Part shown: piece by piece, positions 31,529-41,205 of the stretch
How the letters are laid out: every line of letters begins with the position of its first letter
How positions within the stretch are numbered: the stretch's first letter is position 1
NCBI GenBank assembly: GCA_903830565.1
Contig: CAIKUF010000281.1
Span: forward strand, 1-60,249
DNA: 60,249 bases
Source: an uncultured bacterium
Lineage (GTDB): Bacteria > Pseudomonadota > Gammaproteobacteria > Burkholderiales > Burkholderiaceae_C
Direction of reading: 5' to 3'
The notes under the pieces: generated by a model
What the model saw: the letters and a program-made list of their open reading frames with translations, nothing else
What the model was told of the DNA's origin: nothing
Databases searched by the model: none
Made by a program: the position numbers and the translations under genes

Positions 31529-32047
31529 TCAGTCGTTGGTGTTGACCAGGCCCATCTCGGCGCTGGCCATCAGCGACTCGATGTCCATCAGGATCAGCAT
31601 GCGGTCCGAGACGCTGCCGATGCCGGTGATGAAGCTCGCATCGACGGCCGACGCGATTTCGGGCGCGGGCTTGATGGCGTCTGGCGCGAGTTCCAGCACG
31701 TCGGAGACCGAATCGACCACCGCGCCGACGACGCGGCCCTTGACGTTGAGCACGATCACGACCGTGAAGCCGTTGTAGTCGGCGCTGTCACAGCCGAGCT
31801 TAAGGCGCAGGTCGACGATGGGTACGATGACGCCGCGCAGGTTGACCACGCCCTTGATGAACGGCGGTGCGTTGGCGATGCGCGTCGGCACTTCGTAGGA
31901 ACGAATCTCCTGCACCTTCAGGATGTCGATCCCGTACTCCTCTCCGCCGAGGCGAAAGGTGAGGAATTCGCCACCGTTGTGCGTGGCCTGAACGGTGCGC
32001 GCGGCCTCGTGACGGGCGACGCGGGCGGTGTCTGTGATCATGTCCAT
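31529..32047 (-). CDS. cheW: Chemotaxis coupling protein CheW
   Basis: 172 residues. AGGAG lies eight bases before the ATG at 32047. CheW bridges methyl-accepting proteins and CheA at the receptor array. The CheW fold covers about 25-165, with [39 protein letters not shown] and [20 protein letters not shown], all typical. The first 22 residues are an extra charged N terminus. It is the last gene of a minus-strand chemotaxis run. A FliA-like motif lies upstream at 32113-32120. Confidence 0.95.
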
Positions 32048-32160: not shown

Positions 32161-33912
32161 TCAGAAGCTCGCCCAGTCGTCGTTCGAGGGCGGCTTGGGT
32201 GCTGCCACGGGCGCCGCGCGCGGCGCGGGTGCCAACTGCGCCGGAGGCGCCACGCGCTTGTGCACCGGCGCTTCCTTGCGCGGCGGCGTCGCGACGCGCT
32301 GCGGCTGCCCGGCGGCGGGCGCGGGCGTCCTCGGTGTCGCCGCCGCATAGCCGTCGAGCTTGAACGTGCTGACCAGGTGGGTCAATTGAGCGGACTGGTC
32401 CTTCAGGCTCTCGGCGGCGGCCGCACTTTGCTCGACCAGCGCGGCGTTTTGCTGCGTCATCTGGTCGAGTTGCGTGACGGCGATGTTGACTTGACCGATG
32501 CCGTCGGACTGCTCGGCCGAGGAAGCCGTGATCTCGCCGATGATGTCGCTGACGCGCTGCACCGACCCGACGATCTCGGTCATCGTTTGTCCCGCGTCGG
32601 CCACCAGGCGCGCGCCGGAGTTGACCTTTTCGACCGATACCCCAATCAGGCTCTTGATCTCCTTGGCCGCCTGGGCCGAGCGCTGCGCGAGGCTGCGCAC
32701 TTCGCTGGCGACGACGGCGAAGCCGCGGCCCTGCTCGCCGGCCCGCGCCGCTTCGACGGCGGCATTCAGTGCCAGGATATTGGTCTGGAAGGCGATGCCG
32801 TCGATGACGCCGATGATGTCGGCGATTTTCTTCGAGCTGGCGTTGATCTCATCCATCGTCACCACGACCCGCGATACCACATCGCCACCGCGCGCGGCCA
32901 CCTGAGCGGCTGAAGATGCGAGTTGGTTGGCCTGGCGCGCCGATTCGGCCGATTGCTTGACGGTGCCGGTGAGCTGCTCCATCGAACTGGCAGTTTGTTG
33001 CAAGTTGGACGCTGTCTGCTCAGTGCGCAGGCTCAGGTCCTGATTGCCGCTGGCGATCTCGGTGCTCGCGGTGCCGATGCTATCGGTCGCCGCACGCAAC
33101 TGGGCCACCATGCGCGCCAGCGACTGCTGCATCGACAACAGGGCGTGCATCAACTTCGTCGACTCGTCGTTCCCGCTCTGCGCGACTGCCTGCGAAAGGT
33201 CGCCGCCTGCGATGCGGTCTGCGACATGGCGCGCTTCTTCCAACGGGCCGCAGATGCTTTGCATGTTGGTAAACGTGGAAGGCACCACCAGCACGCCCGC
33301 GAGCGTGACCGCCGCGCCGAACATGATCAGCGTTTTCCTGAACGTGTCTTCTATTTCCTGTTGCCTTGCAGTGCCCTCTTGCTGAAACAGCGCGCTCAAC
33401 TCGTCGGCAACCTTCTCGGCTTCGTGGATGGCCTCCTTGGCCCGAGCCGCTGCCTCATTGGCGGCGGCGATCGTGCCGAAGGCCTTCCCTTCGATCCGAC
33501 CCAGCACCTCAGCCATCGCGCCCGAGTAGGCTTGCAACGCCGTGCCCATCGCAGCCACTTTCTCGACATCGCTGCTGATGACCTGCGCACGCAGAGCGGC
33601 GACGGTCTTGGTTGCGTCGTCGCGCACGGTTTGCCACTGCTGTTTGTACTTGAGCAACTGCACCGGGTTGTCGTTGTGGATGATCACGTCTTTCTCGAAG
33701 CGGCGCAGGCTCCCCATCTGGTTTCGCAGAACGGCGAGGGACTGGCTTTGCGCGTAAGTCTGCGTCATGAACTCGCTGCTGTGCTCTTGAAGGTGCATCA
33801 TGCCGATGAGGCCGATGCTGCCGATGGCGACGAGCAGGGTCATCACGATGAAGATGGCGCCGATCATGCGTGTACGGATGGTGAATCGACGGAAGAAGTG
33901 GTTGAGGCTCAT
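32161..33912 (-). CDS. Methyl-accepting chemotaxis protein with C-terminal tether pentapeptide
   Basis: 583 residues from the ATG at 33912 ([10 protein letters not shown]). TM1 is about 16-38 ([20 protein letters not shown]). A periplasmic helical ligand-binding domain follows to about 190; TM2 is near 192-212 ([17 protein letters not shown]), then a HAMP linker ([15 protein letters not shown]). The cytoplasmic coiled coil has the invariant hairpin tip [21 protein letters not shown] Pro/Ala-rich flexible linker ends in DWASF, fitting the x-W-x2-F pentapeptide that tethers CheR and CheB in high-abundance receptors. cheR and cheB are not in the window. The ligand is unknown. Confidence 0.93.
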
Positions 33913-33968
33913 GATGTTGGCTCGACGGTGGAAATGGAATGGCTCGTTGGCTTGAAGTGGCAACCGCG

Positions 33969-35510
33969 CTATGCCGCGGCGAGCCTGAATTTGGAGACGG
34001 CCTCGCGCAGCGCTTCGGCCTGGGACTTGAGGCTTTCGGCCGCGGCCGCCGACTGTTCGACGAGCGCGGCGTTCTGCATCGTCATCTGATCGACTTCGTT
34101 GACCGACTGGTTCACACGGCCGATGCCTTGCGACTGCTCGGCCGCTGCGTTTGTGATCTCGCCAATGATCTGTGTGACGCGCTGAACGGAGGAAACGATC
34201 TCGGTCATCGTCGCGTCGGCGTCCTTCACCAGGCGGCCGCCCGATTCGACCTTGTCGACCGAGGTCCCGATCAGGCTCTTGATCTCTCTGGCGGCCTGTG
34301 CCGAGCGTTGCGCAAGGCTGCGCACTTCGCTGGCGACGACGGCAAAGCCGCGCCCTTGCTCGCCCGCCCTCGCGGCCTCGACAGAGGCGTTCAGGGCGAG
34401 GGTGTTGGTCCGGAACGCGATTCCGTCGACGACACCGATGATCCCGGCGATCTGCCGCGAACTGGTGTTGATCGCCTGCATGGTGTCGACCACCTGCGCC
34501 ACCGCGGCACCGCCGCGGGTGGCGACACCGGCTGCCGAGCACGCCATCTGCGAGGCTTGGCGTGCCGATTCTGCGCTTTGTTGCATGGCGCCGGTGAGTT
34601 GGTCCACGCTGGATGTCGCGCTCTGTAGGTTCGACGCCGTCTGCTCGGTACGCATCGACAGGTTCAGGTTGCCGCTGGCGATCTCATCAGACGCAACGCG
34701 CATCGACTCCGAGGACTGCAGCACCGAACTGAGCGACGCATTGAGCGGGCGGCCCATCTTGGCCAGTGCCCGGATCAGGTCGCCGACCTCGTCCACGCGC
34801 TCGCTGCGCGGCTCGAGGTCCAGGTGGCCGGATGCCACCTGGTCGGCCACCGTCACTGCGCGGTGCAACTCGGCGACGATCTTGTGCCGTACGAGCCAGG
34901 CCAGGCCGACTGCGGCGGCGGTGACGATGGCGCTGAGCACAAAGAGCAGGACGTGCGAGCGAGCGGCTTGAACAAGCATCGACTCGAGCAAGGCGGTTCC
35001 CTGCGCGTCCATGCGCGCGCAAAGGTCCGCGAGCGTCTTGGTCAGCGCGGCAAAGCTGGCATCGGCGCCCTGCATCGCTGCCACGCCGGTGTTGGTATCG
35101 ACCGTCGATAGGTCGATCGCCTGGTCGGCCTGCTTCTCGTAGGCGTCGATTTGCGCACGGGCCTGCACGAGCAAGGCCTGCCCGGCTGGTTCGGCCGAGA
35201 CGCTTGCGCCGACCGTGGCGATCGCCTGGCGCACGCCGGCTAGCGCGGACTTGAGCTTGGCCCGGCTCGACTGGACCGTGGCCTGGTCGAGCGAAGACAC
35301 CAGGGCGACGGTCCGGTACACGCCGGCGTGGATGTGACCAGCTTCGCGCTGTGCATCGCCGAGGGCGCGGGTTTGGCCGATCTGGTCCTTGAACCAGGCT
35401 TGGCCTGCCAGCGTCTCATTGCGCGACATCCAGGCGCTCACGCCGGCTGCCCCGAGGACGACAGCGCCCGCCATCAGTGGCGCCGCAACCAGTTTGGAAC
35501 CTAGCTTCAT
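33969..35510 (-). CDS. Methyl-accepting chemotaxis protein without tether peptide
   Basis: 513 residues from the ATG at 35510 ([11 protein letters not shown]). TM1 ([21 protein letters not shown], 7-27) is followed by a roughly 160-residue periplasmic four-helix-type domain, then TM2 ([20 protein letters not shown], about 190-209) and HAMP ([15 protein letters not shown]). The signalling domain again has [20 protein letters not shown] at the tip. It ends VSKFRLAAA and lacks the W-x2-F pentapeptide found in its neighbour, so adaptation likely depends on the tethered receptor. It is 56 bases upstream of the other receptor gene and 50 bases downstream of the Cache gene, suggesting one transcript. 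Confidence 0.92.
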
Positions 35511-35560
35511 GGTCGCTCCCGTGTGACGCGCTTGTCCATGTGCTTGCCGTTGCAGGCGGC

Positions 35561-36034
35561 TTACTTGTAGACGCCGCCGCAAAGCACCACGTCGTCGACG
35601 CGCTCGCAGTACATGCTCTTGGGCTCGATCTTCTTGTTCGTCGGATTGGTGAACTTGTAGTCCTGCCAGAAGCTGCCCTTGGCCTGCGCGAGGTCGATGC
35701 GTTCCTTCACGAAGGGCTTGCCGTCGATGTCCTTGAGGTCGATCAGGTTCTTGCCGATCATCTTTTCGTTGGCATCGTGTGCGTACGCGGTGCCGTCCAT
35801 GCCGTAGGCGACGAGGTACAGGTCGCGGTCGATGAACTGGCCGTGCTTGTCGCTGATCGCGGCGTAGGTCTTGTCCTTGCCGTTGGCCTTCAGGTAGACG
35901 ACGCCCTTCTTGACCATCGCCGTCGCTTCGGCGGCCGTGGCGTTGCCGTCCTTGGCCTGCGCGGGGTTCAGGCACAGTCCCGCGACGGTGGCGGCGAGTG
36001 CAAGCGTGACTTTGAGAAAGTGTTTCGTGCGCAT
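35561..36034 (-). CDS. Stand-alone secreted Cache-domain protein
   Basis: 157 residues. A signal peptide ([20 protein letters not shown], cleavage near AQA/KD at 27) precedes a single Cache fold. Typical phrases are [38 protein letters not shown] and [16 protein letters not shown], with a C-terminal Cys pair (MYCER and VLCGG) that may form a disulphide. Cache domains normally sit in the periplasmic part of receptors; here the domain is a free periplasmic protein. Its place between a receptor gene and cheA suggests it binds a ligand and presents it to the receptor. A FliA-like -10 motif lies upstream at 36143-36150. Confidence 0.85.
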
Positions 36035-36142
36035 GACGATCTCCCTGGGAGCGATACGGATGAGCGGCTCGTCGCACAGCGCCTCACGCTGGCGTCGCTG
36101 TGGCGCGGTCTGCGCCCCGGCACGACTTGCGGGTTGACATGG

Positions 36143-36219: not shown

Positions 36220-38325
36220 TCAGTGGCGCGAGCGCCGCACCATGCTGGCAACGTCCAAGATCAGCGCCACCCGACCGTCGCCCATGATCGTCGCCCCGGA
36301 GACGCCGTCGACCTTGCGGTAGTTGGCCTCGAGGTTCTTGACGACCACCTGTTGCTGGCCGAGCAATTCGTCGACGAGCAATGCGACGCGGCCGCCGTCG
36401 GCCTCCACGACGACCATGATCGCGCTCGCGGCGTCGGCGTCGCTGCGTGGCACGTTGAACACACGCTCGAGGTCGAGCACCGGCATGAATTCGTTGCGCA
36501 CCTCGACCAAGCGGCCCGTGCCGCCGACGGACTTGATGGTGTCGGCCTCGACCTGGAACGACTCGATGACGGATGACAGCGGCAGGATGTAGACCTCCTC
36601 GCCGACGCCGATCGACATGCCGTCCATGATCGCCAGCGTGAGCGGCAGGCGAACCGACACGCGCATACCGTAGCCCGCTGCCGAGTCGATTTCGACCGTG
36701 CCGCCGAGCGCGCTGATGTTGCGCTTGACGACGTCCATGCCGACGCCGCGGCCGGAGACGTCGGTGACGACATCGGCGGTCGAGAAGCCGGGGGCGAAGA
36801 TCAGGTCCCAGACCTCGCTGTCGGCGAGCGTGTCGGGGGCGTCGATGCCGCGCTCGCGCGCCTTCTCCAGGATCTTCGTGCGCGAGAGGCCACGCCCGTC
36901 GTCGCGCACTTCGATCACGATCGAGCTGCCCTGGTGCGAGGCCGAAAGCGTGAGCGTGCCCTGCTCGGGCTTGCCCAGCGCCACGCGCTCGGCGGGCAGT
37001 TCGATGCCGTGGTCGCAGGAGTTGCGAACCAGGTGCGTGAGCGGGTCGGTGATCTTCTCGACCATGCCCTTGTCCAGTTCGGTCGCCTCGCCCTTGGTCA
37101 CGAAGTTGACCTTCTTGCCGAGCTTACCGGCCAGGTCGCGCAGCATGCGCGGGAAGCGGCTGAAGACGATCGACATCGGGATCATGCGGATCGACATCAC
37201 CGATTCCTGCAGGTCGCGCGTGTTGCGCTCCAGGTCCGCGAGGCCGCTGGTGAGCTGCTGGTGCAGCGCCGCGTCCAGACCCATGCTCTTCTGCGCCAGC
37301 ATGGCTTGCGTGATGACGAGTTCGCCCACCAGATTGATGAGCTGGTCGACCCTATCGACCGACACCCGTAGCGTCGATGCTTCGGGCACCGCCGCGGCGA
37401 CGCGGGTCGCGCCGCCGTGCTGGGCCGCTTTGGCAGCGGCCTCGGCCTGTCCGGTGGCCGGCTCGGTCGCGGTGTCGGCGTCCATCGGCGCGCCGGGCGC
37501 GTTGGCGAAGAAGCCATAGCCCAGTTCCGGCGCTTCGGGCGCCGGTGCACCGGGCGCATCGTTGTGGAAGCCGAAGCCCTTGTCCAGCGGCTGCAATGTG
37601 AGCTGCTCTCGGGCGACGTGAAACGTGAACAGGTCCAGCAGGTCGTTGTCGCTGCTGGTCGTCGTGATCATGAAGCGCCGCATGAAGTCCGCGCTCTGCC
37701 CGCCGTCCAGCGGCTCGATGGTTCCCAGGTCCGGGATCTCGCGGAACAGCTCGAGCAGGTTGTCGGCGTCGTCGGTTCGCTCCAGTGGACCCACGCGCAG
37801 CTCGAGCTGGCGCAGGCCATACGCTCCCGACGGCACCGGCGCCTGTGTGGCCGCCTCGGCCGTCACCGTCGCTGCGGGAGAGGGCTCGGCGGCAAGCACC
37901 GGCTCGCCAGCGACGAGTGCGCGCACGCTGCGTAGGAGCTCGGTCGTGTCCACGGCGTTGCCGCCCGCGCCCTGGCGGCACGCGAGTTGGCTGCGCAATG
38001 CGTCGCCCGACTGCAACAGCACGTCGACCATGGGCGCGGTCGGCATGAGTTCGTGGCGGCGCAGCTTGTCGAGCAGGGTTTCCATCTGGTGCGTCAACTC
38101 GGCTACGTCGGCAAAGCCGAATGTCGCCGCGCCGCCCTTGATCGAGTGGGCACAACGGAAGATGGCGTTGAGTTCCTCATCGTCCGCGGTCTGGATGTCC
38201 AGCCCAAGCAGGAACTTCTCCATTTGATCGAGGTTTTCGCCGGCTTCCTCGAAGAAGACCTGGTAGAACTGAGTCAGGTCGATGCCGGCGTTTGGCTGCG
38301 AGCTGCCGGTTGTGGTGTCACCCAT
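36220..38325 (-). CDS. cheA: Chemotaxis histidine kinase CheA
   Basis: 701 residues. CheA autophosphorylates and passes phosphate to CheY. The P1 HPt domain has its His in FRCAHSIKGGAATFGF (about 56-71). A CheY-binding P2-like region covers about 170-250 (LELRVGPLERTDDADNLLEL). Ala/Pro-rich linkers lead to P3 dimerisation (STLRVSVDRVDQLINLVGEL, near 325). The P4 ATPase has the N box HLVRNSCDHGIELP and G boxes (VRDDGRGLS and DVSGRGVGMDVV), and a P5 CheW-like domain follows. All functional residues seem present. It lies 56 bases downstream of cheY and 185 bases upstream of the Cache gene. Confidence 0.96.
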   Translation of the reverse strand: MGDTTTGSSQPNAGIDLTQFYQVFFEEAGENLDQMEKFLLGLDIQTADDEELNAIFRCAHSIKGGAATFGFADVAELTHQMETLLDKLRRHELMPTAPMVDVLLQSGDALRSQLACRQGAGGNAVDTTELLRSVRALVAGEPVLAAEPSPAATVTAEAATQAPVPSGAYGLRQLELRVGPLERTDDADNLLELFREIPDLGTIEPLDGGQSADFMRRFMITTTSSDNDLLDLFTFHVAREQLTLQPLDKGFGFHNDAPGAPAPEAPELGYGFFANAPGAPMDADTATEPATGQAEAAAKAAQHGGATRVAAAVPEASTLRVSVDRVDQLINLVGELVITQAMLAQKSMGLDAALHQQLTSGLADLERNTRDLQESVMSIRMIPMSIVFSRFPRMLRDLAGKLGKKVNFVTKGEATELDKGMVEKITDPLTHLVRNSCDHGIELPAERVALGKPEQGTLTLSASHQGSSIVIEVRDDGRGLSRTKILEKARERGIDAPDTLADSEVWDLIFAPGFSTADVVTDVSGRGVGMDVVKRNISALGGTVEIDSAAGYGMRVSVRLPLTLAIMDGMSIGVGEEVYILPLSSVIESFQVEADTIKSVGGTGRLVEVRNEFMPVLDLERVFNVPRSDADAASAIMVVVEADGGRVALLVDELLGQQQVVVKNLEANYRKVDGVSGATIMGDGRVALILDVASMVRRSRH

Positions 38326-38381: not shown

Positions 38382-38744
38382 CTAGCGAATGACCTTGCGG
38401 ATCACCTCGATCAGCTTCGTGGGGTCGAATGGCTTGACCATCCAGCCCGTGGCGCCGGCGCTGCGGCCGGCCATCTTCATCTGGTCGCTCGATTCGGTCG
38501 TGAGGATCAGGATCGGCGTGGTCTTGAACTTGGGGTTCTCGCGCAGCTTTCGGGTCAGGCCGATGCCGTCCATGCGCGGCATGTTCTGGTCGGTCAGCAC
38601 GAGGTCGAAGTCGAGACCGCCAGCTTTTTCCAAAGCGTCTTGTCCGTCGATCGCTTCGACGACGTTGAAGCCGGCGCTCTTGAGCGTGAACGACACCATC
38701 TGGCGCATCGACGCAGAGTCGTCCACGGCGAGGATTGAATGCAT
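38382..38744 (-). CDS. cheY: Chemotaxis response regulator CheY
   Basis: 120 residues, a single receiver domain. Features are the acidic pair in ILAVDDSASM, the phosphorylated Asp in DLVLTDQNMPRMDG (about 51), Thr in ILILTTESS and Lys in GWMVKPFDPTKL. Phospho-CheY binds the flagellar switch. It is preceded by a good FliA-type promoter (38770-38796) and by the CheZ-like gene, and is followed by cheA. Confidence 0.95.
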   Translation of the reverse strand: MHSILAVDDSASMRQMVSFTLKSAGFNVVEAIDGQDALEKAGGLDFDLVLTDQNMPRMDGIGLTRKLRENPKFKTTPILILTTESSDQMKMAGRSAGATGWMVKPFDPTKLIEVIRKVIR

Positions 38745-38769: not shown

Positions 38770-38796
38770 ATATCGGCTGATTGAGTAATGGCTTTA
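38770..38796 (-). promoter_or_regulatory. Sigma-28 (FliA) promoter for cheY-cheA
   Basis: On the minus strand TAAA (38796-38793), a 15-base spacer and GCCGATAT (38777-38770) fit the FliA consensus TAAA-N15-GCCGATAA with one mismatch. The -35 overlaps the stop codon of the CheZ-like gene. It lies 26 bases before the cheY ATG, so the leader would be short. Confidence 0.7.
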
Positions 38797-39240
38797 GAAG
38801 AGGTCGATGGAACCGGCGTCCATCTCGTCCTGCGTCACCGGGTTGGGGTGCAAGGGCGGCATTTCCACTTCGGCCGGTCCGTCCTCGTCGTCGGCGAAGG
38901 TCTGGCGCGCGAGCTGGTCGACGCAACTGCGCAACCGGCGGTGGGTGTGCTGGATCAACTGCGTGGCCATGTCCTCGAACTGCAGTGCTACAACGGCATC
39001 GCCGAGCTGTCGTATCGCGGCTTCGAGCGGCGGCGAACGTTCGGCGGCGTTGCCCAGCGCGTCCAGACCGCGCCTGGCGCCATAGAAGCACTTCATCAGT
39101 TCCTCACAGGAGTGGGTGAGCAGCGCGTGCAAACGGTCCAGGTCGTTGCTGACCATCAGCAGGTGGTCCTGAATGTCGGCCGCGGCCAGCAGCGGCAAGC
39201 CCAGAAACGGCTCTTGCGCGGCGTTTTCGTTTGTCGCCAT
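38794..39240 (-). CDS. Compact CheZ-like chemotaxis phosphatase (candidate)
   Basis: 148 residues from the ATG at 39240 (MATNENAAQE), with GGAG seven bases upstream; a start 36 bases earlier is less likely. Almost wholly helical. Residues 86-98 read LQFEDMATQLIQH: Asp90 and Gln94 have the D-x3-Q spacing of CheZ (E. coli Asp143/Gln147 in FQDLTGQVI), the pair that dephosphorylates CheY. After an acidic linker (FADDEDGPAEVE) the chain ends EMDAGSIDLF, resembling the C-terminal CheY-binding peptide of CheZ that ends DDLLDSLGF. E. coli CheZ has 214 residues, so this is shorter. It directly precedes cheY. The role is inferred from motif and context. Confidence 0.6.
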   Translation of the reverse strand: MATNENAAQEPFLGLPLLAAADIQDHLLMVSNDLDRLHALLTHSCEELMKCFYGARRGLDALGNAAERSPPLEAAIRQLGDAVVALQFEDMATQLIQHTHRRLRSCVDQLARQTFADDEDGPAEVEMPPLHPNPVTQDEMDAGSIDLF

Positions 39241-39275
39241 CGATGCTCCATGTACGGCATGCCGCGCGTGCGACA

Positions 39276-39298
39276 CACGATCCGTGACGCGGATCGTG
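39276..39298. repeat. Palindrome in the cheZ-like/kinase divergent region
   Basis: Perfect 9-base inverted repeat CACGATCCG-TGACG-CGGATCGTG between the two divergent start sites. It could be an operator for a dimeric regulator or a structured leader; no U-run marks it as a terminator. Confidence 0.5.
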
Positions 39299-39415
39299 CG
39301 GCGGTACCGGTCGCCGTGTCACCTGGATTTCGGCAGCCCGGCGAAATTCATGAGGCCAATCTGCGCATCGACAAGCTGCCAGGGCAACGCCGTCCGACGG
39401 GGCATACTCCGCAAT

Positions 39416-40573
39416 ATGACATCGCCCGACTCGCAGCGCACCCTGCGCGTCCTGCACCTGGAGGACTCCGAGCTCGACCACGCGCTGACGCTGGCGCAGC
39501 TCAAGCGCGGCGGTCTGGACGTGAAGATGCAGCGCATCGACTCCGAGCCCGAGTTCCTGCGCGCACTGGAGCAGGACTGGGACGCGATCATCTCGGACTA
39601 CAACCTGCCGGGCTTCTCGGGCCTGGTCGCGCTGGACCTGCTCAAGGCGAGCGGGCGCGACATCCCCTTTCTGCTGCTCTCGGGTGAGATCGGCGAAGAC
39701 GCGGCCGTCGAGGCGATGCGCAACGGCAGTGCCGACTACCTGCCGAAGAACAACATGGCGCGCCTGGTGCCGGCGCTGCTGCATGCGGTCGACGCGAACG
39801 AGACGAGGCGCGCGCACCTGCGGGCCGACCGCGAGCTCGGCGAGAGCAAACAGCGCTTGCGCGAACTCGCGCAGCATCTTCAGACCAGCATCGAGGCCGA
39901 GCGGGCGGCGATCGCGCGCGAGATCCACGACGACGTCGGCGGCTCGCTGTCGGCGCTCAACTTCGACCTCGCCTGGATCGCGCGTCATTCCGACTCGCCG
40001 GCGGTTCGCCAGCGCGTGGCTTCGGCGCTCGAGACCCTCACCCTGGCGATCGAAGCCAGCCAGCGGGTGATGCACAACCTGCGCCCGGCGATCCTCGAGC
40101 AAGGCCTGGTGGCGGCGCTGCAGTGGATGTCGGCCCGCTTCGAGCGGCGCACGGGCTTGGCCTGCCGTTTCAGCAGCGACCGCGAGACGCTCGATCTGCC
40201 GCCCGGCGTGCCGCTGGTGGCCTACCGCACTGCGCAGGAGGCGCTCACCAACGTGACCAAGCATGCGCTGGCGACGCGCGTCTCGATCGAGCTCACCGTC
40301 GCGGCGGGAACGCTGACGCTGGAAGTCAGCGACAACGGCCGCGGCCTCGATCGCGACGACCTCGCCAAGGAGCGCTCGTTCGGCATTCGCGGCCTGCACG
40401 AGCGCGCGAGCACGGTCGGCGGCTGGGTCGACCTGAGCAGCGGCGCGGGCGGCACCACACTGATCCTCTCGGTGCCGCTGCAAGCCGCCGAAGTGGCGGC
40501 CGGCATGGCGCCATCGCACGAGCAGGAACTCGCCAGCGCGCAAGTCAACCCGAGCAATTGGGGTGACCTGTGA
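39416..40573 (+). CDS. Hybrid sensor: receiver domain plus NarX/DegS-type histidine kinase
   Basis: 385 residues from the ATG at 39416 (MTSPDSQRTL). The N-terminal receiver domain (about 10-130) has its acidic site in LHLEDSELD and the Asp in IISDYNLPGFSG. There is no membrane segment, so input comes through phosphorylation or protein contact. A HisKA_3 helix pair follows, with the phosphoacceptor His in AREIHDDVGGSLSAL (near 172). The HATPase contains AYRTAQEALTNVTKHA, EVSDNGRGLD and FGIRGLHERAS. It overlaps the NarL-type regulator gene by four bases (GTGA). It is divergent from the chemotaxis cluster but not clearly part of it. Confidence 0.92.
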   Translation: MTSPDSQRTLRVLHLEDSELDHALTLAQLKRGGLDVKMQRIDSEPEFLRALEQDWDAIISDYNLPGFSGLVALDLLKASGRDIPFLLLSGEIGEDAAVEAMRNGSADYLPKNNMARLVPALLHAVDANETRRAHLRADRELGESKQRLRELAQHLQTSIEAERAAIAREIHDDVGGSLSALNFDLAWIARHSDSPAVRQRVASALETLTLAIEASQRVMHNLRPAILEQGLVAALQWMSARFERRTGLACRFSSDRETLDLPPGVPLVAYRTAQEALTNVTKHALATRVSIELTVAAGTLTLEVSDNGRGLDRDDLAKERSFGIRGLHERASTVGGWVDLSSGAGGTTLILSVPLQAAEVAAGMAPSHEQELASAQVNPSNWGDL

Positions 40574-41205
40574 TCAAGGTGGTTCTCTGCGACGACCACG
40601 CGCTGATCCGGCGCGGCATTCGCGACACGCTCTCGGACGCCCCTGACATTGAGGTCGTCGGCGAGGCTGGCGACTACGGCGAGTTGCGCACGCTGCTGCG
40701 CACGACCGCCTGCGACGTGCTCGTGCTCGACATCAACCTGCCGGGGCGCAGCGGGCTGGATGTGCTGCACGTGCTCAAGGACGAAGGCCCGCCGCCGCGC
40801 GTGCTGGTGGTCAGCATGTACCCGGAAGACCAGTACGCGATCCGCGCGCTGCGTGCCGGTGCGTTCGGCTACGTGAACAAGGGCGGCGACCCGGCGCTGA
40901 TCGTCGCCGCCGTGCGCACGGTTGCGCAGGGCCGCAAGTACGTCACGCCCGAGATCGCACAAATGCTGGTCGAGAGCCTGACGACGCCGGTCAGCGCGCA
41001 GGCGCACGAGAAGCTCTCGGATCGCGAGCTGCAGACGCTGGTCATGATCGCGTCGGGCAAGCGGCTGTCCGACATCGCCGAGGAGCTCAGCCTCAGCCCG
41101 AAGACGGTCAGTGTCTACCGCGCCCGCGTGCTCGAGAAGCTCGGCCTGACCAACAATTCCGAGATGACGGTCTACGCGATCCGCAACGGGCTGGTCGGGG
41201 ACTGA
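40570..41205 (+). CDS. NarL/UhpA-type response regulator
   Basis: 211 residues from GTG at 40570. The receiver domain (about 1-120) has CDDHALIRRGI, the phosphorylated Asp in VLVLDINLPGRSG and YVNKGGDP. The LuxR-type helix-turn-helix (about 145-205) reads LSDRELQTLVMIASGKRLSD, then SLSPKTVSVYRARVLEKL. It is the overlapping partner of the cytoplasmic hybrid kinase upstream. Target genes are not evident; the polyphosphate kinase gene begins 57 bases downstream on the same strand. Confidence 0.93.
   Translation: MIKVVLCDDHALIRRGIRDTLSDAPDIEVVGEAGDYGELRTLLRTTACDVLVLDINLPGRSGLDVLHVLKDEGPPPRVLVVSMYPEDQYAIRALRAGAFGYVNKGGDPALIVAAVRTVAQGRKYVTPEIAQMLVESLTTPVSAQAHEKLSDRELQTLVMIASGKRLSDIAEELSLSPKTVSVYRARVLEKLGLTNNSEMTVYAIRNGLVGD

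Follow-up and report, generated by a model that had tools for sequence, protein, structure and literature searches.

A compact CheZ-like protein encoded beside cheY matches both ends of a chemoreceptor and may act as a stand-alone CheY-P phosphatase

What does a protein of 148 residues, encoded directly upstream of cheY in an uncultured member of the Burkholderiales, do there, and where did it come from? The question arose in the window, by which we mean the whole stretch of 60,249 nucleotides analyzed here. A first-pass annotation of the letters alone had proposed a phosphatase acting like CheZ, possibly a minimal CheZ. The open reading frame at 38794-39240 proved to be real and lies on the minus strand, the strand having been left unstated. 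The numbering of D90 and Q94 was correct, and the sequence LQFEDMATQLI and the C-terminal end GSIDLF were both as described. We refer to the protein as ZL. The reading that we favor, with moderate confidence, is that ZL is a stand-alone phosphatase of phosphorylated CheY (CheY-P), cut from a McpA/CttP-like receptor and left without its signalling tip. The relevant features of the window are as follows.

38794..39240, minus strand: ZL, the compact CheZ-like protein of 148 aa, from the ATG at 39240 through the stop codon
38956..38988, minus strand: ZL signature A-L-Q-F-E-D90-M-A-T-Q94-L, residues 85-95
38797..38838, minus strand: ZL C-terminal tail, residues 135-148, VTQDEMDAGSIDLF, with a predicted helix at 137-142 and a conserved G-x-[IV]-[ED]-L-F end
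38382..38744, minus strand: cheY, the proposed substrate of ZL (Response_reg, 98 bits)
36220..38325, minus strand: cheA (the genome has two CheA dimerisation-domain matches, of which this is one)
35561..36034, minus strand: free single-Cache domain protein, 157 aa, within the che cluster (sCache_2, 54.9 bits)
33969..36077, minus strand: open frame whose C-terminal half is MCP-like, true start internal (translation inspected by eye)
32161..34542, minus strand: open frame with an MCP, true start internal (MCPsignal, 179 bits)
31529..32047, minus strand: cheW (CheW, 131.5 bits)

Downstream of ZL come cheY, cheA, the gene of the free single-Cache protein, both MCP frames and finally cheW. The gap between ZL and cheY is 49 nt, so that the adjacency originally reported was borne out. 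By its place, the window cheY is probably of the F7 type. Among relatives of ZL, at least 533 were confirmed, and the best 80 of them are used below as named loci. The free single-Cache protein (35561-36034, minus) begins with a signal-peptide-like stretch, and its gene is flanked by cheA and the MCPs. Of these best 80 loci, only 4 gave a match to a similar protein, and many of the 80 end short of this position. The MCP at 32161-34542 (minus) ends in NDDWASF, which fits the aromatic-x-x-F pentapeptide that tethers CheR and CheB, unlike the tail of ZL. Upstream of ZL, a receiver-kinase frame and a LuxR-type regulator are encoded divergently (39173-41205, plus), and the LuxR-type gene also lay divergently upstream in 74 of the best 80 loci.

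The association of ZL with cheY was highly regular near the window. The named loci came from Rhizobacter, Rubrivivax, Roseateles, Aquabacterium, Methylibium and related Burkholderiales. In all 80 of them, the best of the 533, cheY lay directly downstream of ZL on the same strand, with 24-136 nt between the match ends. Next after cheY came cheA in 78, and the other two contigs end first. Within the family of the window, ZL was matched in 72 of 120 genomes, its own included (E <= 1e-4), and a cheY of the window type in 79 (E <= 1e-36). ZL stood directly before this cheY in every one of the 72 (18-195 nt between match ends); seven genomes had a cheY match without a ZL match, and 41 had neither. 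The region upstream of cheY was inspected in five of the seven. G718 held a divergent ZL (LQFHDLTRQLL ... GEIELF) and G768 a receptor, and no ZL was recognised upstream of the cheY match in G719, G725 and G711. Because of their low identity, the cheY matches in G700 and G716 (51% each) and in G768 (59%) may be other CheYs. Upstream of the receptor and cheY of G768 (locus L228) there is another frame with ALQSEDIAGQML, ending in GDLEFF, a possible distant cousin of ZL.

Relatives were also found in 69 of 300 genomes of an order-wide sample (E <= 0.01) and in 96 of 398 genomes of a phylum-wide sample (E <= 0.001). A cheY match lay within flanks of about 1.5 kb in 29 of the 30 loci L002-L031. The one exception is a compact form inside the order (L027, the same as L218), which had no cheY match within 12 kb either, and in the order three forms of about 330 aa had none in stretches of 6.3, 8.3 and 12 kb, some of which were ended by the contig. 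The linkage is weaker outside the order, where 14 of 18 loci (L153-L170) had no cheY match within flanks of about 1.5 kb. A plasmid search with a receptor C-terminus as query returned nothing.

The D-x3-Q pair by itself was rejected as evidence, since it occurs at chance level: it was present in 59% of shuffles of ZL and in 108 of the 297 window open frames of at least 100 aa. Of 200,000 shuffled versions, 102 contained the wider signature A-x-x-F-[Q/E]-D-x3-Q and 17 contained the tail pattern [ST]Q[DASE]E[MVIL]D[AD]. Each occurred in just one of the 297 frames, ZL itself, both patterns having been composed after the sequence was seen. Conservation is a stronger test of D90 and Q94 than the shuffles. 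Both residues were found in 83 of 83 distinct sequences, the window's own included and three architectures represented, with variation at positions 89, 91, 92 and 93. This set was gathered by homology, its weaker matches centered on the motif, and each row was placed with the help of a pattern that includes D and Q, which every row matched. Q87, F88, D90, Q94, G143, L147 and F148 were each invariant in the 83, and Q137 was kept in 80. The residue at position 85 was A in 61 of the 83 of this wider set, and the position of E89 was occupied by Q in 76 of 81 sequences. A motif-independent search, with residues 97-148 as query, matched 71 of the 120 family genomes, and D-x3-Q was kept in all 30 loci opened (the best 30 of the 71, own included). 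The named collection was scanned with the pattern QF[QEH]DM[AS][STA]Q. Because this pattern contains Q87, F88, D90, M91 and Q94, their invariance in the 80 named loci is not independent, and conservation was therefore read from the search with residues 97-148 and from the 83 sequences instead. In proteobacterial CheZ, the available part of PMC7750401 describes A-x-x-F-Q adjoining D-x-x-x-Q as conserved.

The AlphaFold model of ZL, built with 57 sequences, had a mean pLDDT of 73.8 and a pTM of 0.55. Helices at 17-65, 70-85 and 88-118 were predicted to form the long helical hairpin that the first-pass annotation had anticipated, followed by a low-confidence linker and a short tail helix at 137-142. 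The pLDDT fell below 50 at residues 1-11, 119-129 and 143-148. The hydrophobic face of helix 2, averaged over 83 rows, was offset from D90 by 28 degrees before the motif (74-86) and by 171 degrees after it (88-105), and the same averages in 31 CheZ were 13 and 180 degrees. On average, ZL and CheZ alike thus show the hydrophobic face changing sides at the active site, after which D and Q lie opposite the hydrophobic core. In single sequences the phase pattern was present in 84 of 95 ZL, 9 of 31 CheZ and 6 of 12 receptor forms. The background was 4 of 34 for D-x3-Q sites elsewhere and 307 of 10,028 for all positions; the thresholds were picked after the averages were known. Searches with the predicted structure were uninformative on the relationships of ZL. 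Foldseek gave no match at E <= 0.001. The 50 matches listed by VIA-align had Z values of 9.9-11.4, and many of them were unrelated helical hairpins, with many PI3K coiled coils. They included 3g67, a chemoreceptor of T. maritima (Z 10.8, rmsd 1.8 over 103), as well as 6s1k_E, a receptor chain from E. coli (Z 10.7, rmsd 1.9 over 101), and CheZ was absent among the 50.

Comparison of profiles linked ZL to CheZ marginally at most. The Pfam CheZ family (PF04344) did not match the window ZL at E up to 1; among 57 orthologues it matched two, with a best E of 0.0021. When the 95 rows of the compact family were aligned by HHalign with 31 CheZ, E was 0.1 and 10 of 60 permuted controls scored as high; for the wider family of 83 rows, E was 0.0079 and one control of 60 did so. 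In this comparison the compact family stands within the noise, and the wider family reaches a marginal match. The window ZL found nothing better than E 0.07 in Pfam, no match at E up to 1 in NCBIfam, and one match among PDB sequences, at E 0.47. Fourteen relatives reached a best E of 0.012 against NCBIfam. A profile of these 14 against the PDB hit two designed repeat proteins (Tako8) at a whole-sequence E of about 5e-9; no single stretch passed, and we discarded these hits as a repeat artefact. The other seven matches of that profile were at E 0.13 or worse.

The relationship to chemoreceptors was much clearer. Three architectures were present among the opened ZL-type loci: compact forms, receptors of about 330-445 aa with an MCP signalling domain, and tip-less proteins of about 330-365 aa. 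The tip-less proteins, one family (f79), kept the receptor N-terminal helix, the D-x3-Q block and the tail, and had no signature of the signalling tip. They were found at L153-L156, L161, L163-L166, L168 and L170, with no cheY match within about 1.5 kb. The window ZL did not match Pfam MCPsignal at E up to 1. When the compact family (95 rows) was aligned by HHalign with receptor forms, residues 71-148 corresponded to the receptor C-terminus (E 7e-22) and residues 11-64 to the receptor N-terminal helix (E 7e-8), and about 176 columns of the signalling hairpin were skipped. The receptor set consisted of 12 of the 15 forms in hand, L016, L017 and L028 being excluded as near-copies or cut. These forms were gathered by similarity to ZL, mostly to its C-terminal half, and for this reason the N-terminal match is the more telling one. 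As both receptor ends were aligned, ZL corresponds to the two outer parts of a receptor.

The likelier direction of evolution is that a receptor lost its tip and gave rise to ZL. Compact forms were opened in several families of the window's order, and the matches listed outside the order included no open frame shorter than 328 aa. In the tree (83 rows, 111 columns), a single origin of the compact forms was not rejected (p-AU 0.116). With midpoint rooting, 39 compact-labelled rows grouped together with L188 at 98/92. L188 is itself compact, its upstream match being spurious, and L210 and L211 score as receptors. One tip loss and several would both be compatible with this tree.

Gene order and tail, the two features used for the assignment, suggest that the receptor family matching the ends of ZL is most likely the McpA/CttP-like one. 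At locus L212, the order is receptor form, cheY, cheA, cheW and long receptor, which fits the gene order of the P. aeruginosa McpA/CttP cluster. The gene content of that cluster is given in the accessible part of PMC6739360. According to the portion available of PMC7184735, F7 chemosensory systems are the ancestors of the E. coli system and retain a CheY of their own, and McpA-like receptors end, without a CheR pentapeptide, in a strikingly conserved region whose role is called "important yet unclear". The same portion states that in genomes of F7 stages 1 and 2, cheZ occurs only in F6 systems and F7 clusters with McpA-like receptors have none, and that at stage 3 the McpA-like gene is lost and the F6 cheY/cheZ pair is kept elsewhere. 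In the freely accessible literature that was consulted, several sources in part, we met no suggestion that the C-terminus of McpA-like receptors, or a free form of it, is a phosphatase of CheY, and we found no CheZ assigned there to an F7 CheY.

The window genome encodes an ordinary full CheZ elsewhere, just downstream of a second cheY; motB, motA and flhD lie farther upstream of that cheY on the same contig. There is one FliM match and there are two CheA dimerisation-domain matches. This fits F7 stage 3 or 4, except that part of the apparent McpA-like gene persists as ZL. Canonical CheZ was present in 66 of the 69 order-sample genomes with ZL relatives and in 120 of the 231 without. ZL therefore adds to CheZ and does not replace it, and a second phosphatase is not obviously needed, although the co-occurrence may only reflect motility. 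Taken together, the proposal that ZL works like CheZ gained circumstantial support from the signature, the predicted hairpin, the linker with its tail helix and the linkage to cheY. The further suggestion of a minimal CheZ was not supported, in view of the marginal sequence links to CheZ, the clear homology to receptor ends and the full CheZ elsewhere in the genome.

The tail of ZL deserves separate consideration. FliM N-terminal and CheZ C-terminal peptides bind CheY. The ZL segment TQDEMDA resembles the N-terminus of the genome's own FliM (LSQDEVDALL), which fits the tail pattern, and is less like the tail of its own CheZ (SDQSEVDDLL, in SDQSEVDDLLASLGF), a looser fit. The clamp-binding pentapeptide is QLxLF; we considered it for the ZL tail and dropped it, as there is no Q at the needed place.

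A conserved tail could also be explained if ZL bound CheY or CheY-P without dephosphorylating it, as a buffer, sink or scaffold left over from the receptor. We regard this as unlikely, though as a serious competitor. Three tail residues, G143, L147 and F148, equal D and Q in their invariance (83/83), ZL is linked to cheY, and a canonical CheZ is present; yet binding would leave unexplained why D90 and Q94 are fixed amid varying neighbors and why they stand in a CheZ-type A..F.D...Q context. The homology to receptor helices would suit an adaptor of the array or pole, in which a receptor-like hairpin sits among receptor dimers and positions CheY, D-x3-Q being kept for packing. The McpA-like receptor of S. 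oneidensis clusters with the CheA of another system (available part of PMC9855816), which would favor such a role. It is nevertheless rather improbable, because ZL, with no MCPsignal match, is missing the tip through which receptors touch CheA and CheW, and because past the motif D and Q are on the side away from the hydrophobic face.

That the tail is a tether for CheR or CheB and the remainder a passive remnant seems very improbable. Its last five residues, SIDLF, do end in F like the receptor pentapeptide GWEEF (PMC6739360, in the part available), but the second of these five residues is never aromatic, all 83 sequences having I or V there. P. aeruginosa McpA has V at the second position, and according to the accessible text of PMC7184735 this valine reportedly keeps the receptor from interacting with the CheR homologues of that species. 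Finally, ZL resembles a receptor with its middle missing, as a decaying, functionless fragment might. It is hardly credible that such a fragment would be matched in 72 of the 120 family genomes and stand ahead of cheY in every one of them, with 33 of its 148 residues invariant in 81 sequences (five of the 33 fixed by the search pattern).

We thus return to a phosphatase freed from a receptor as the preferred reading, and it can be pictured as follows. The substrate would be the phosphorylated CheY encoded beside ZL. CheZ and receptors dimerise into four-helix bundles, and the predicted hairpin of each ZL chain would probably do the same. The C-terminal tail would dock on CheY first. In CheZ, the Gln places a water molecule and the Asp contacts the CheY active site; by analogy, Q94 of ZL would then position water and D90 would contact the active site of CheY. 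ZL would serve the F7 CheY, and the ordinary CheZ of the genome is encoded with motAB and the second cheY.

A broader and more tentative idea, possible but short of even probability in our judgment, is that McpA/CttP-like receptors themselves already contain a CheZ-type phosphatase of CheY-P, placed at the kinase-distal end of the hairpin and accompanied by a CheY-docking tail. These would be the unexplained conserved C-terminus and the missing F7 phosphatase. In bacteria of the Rhizobacter, Rubrivivax and Roseateles type, the receptor would have lost its tip and the phosphatase would have been freed, and CheZ may stem from a receptor hairpin likewise. A free-standing, likely McpA-like C-terminus by cheY with a CheZ-type signature would join the two puzzles of F7 systems, the missing cheZ and the conserved C-terminus. 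If true, it would be a concrete case of a chemoreceptor turned soluble signalling enzyme.

Among known systems, CheC, CheX and FliY act on CheY-P via an acidic-plus-amide pair on a helix, with the motif E-x-x-N, and ZL matched none of them in Pfam at E up to 1. HisKA_3-type kinases have a D-x-x-x-Q phosphatase motif with the same spacing as in ZL, and ZL did not match HisKA_3 at E up to 1. CheZ shares with ZL the A..F[QE]D...Q signature, a helical hairpin (predicted in ZL), a flexible linker, a C-terminal helix and a cheY neighbor. It is longer, about 214 aa in E. coli (PDB 1kmi_Z), of which the 148 aa of ZL are about 69%, close to the two-thirds first estimated. The tail also differs, ending in D[DE]LLxSLGF in 31 CheZ and in [IV][ED]LF, after the predicted short helix, in ZL. 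McpA/CttP-like receptors of F7 clusters (P. aeruginosa PA0180, V. cholerae VCA1088, S. oneidensis SO_2117) are probably the family that shares the two ends of ZL. They carry the MCP signalling domain that ZL lacks, and like ZL they have a conserved C-terminus without a CheR pentapeptide and a place beside an F7 cheY.
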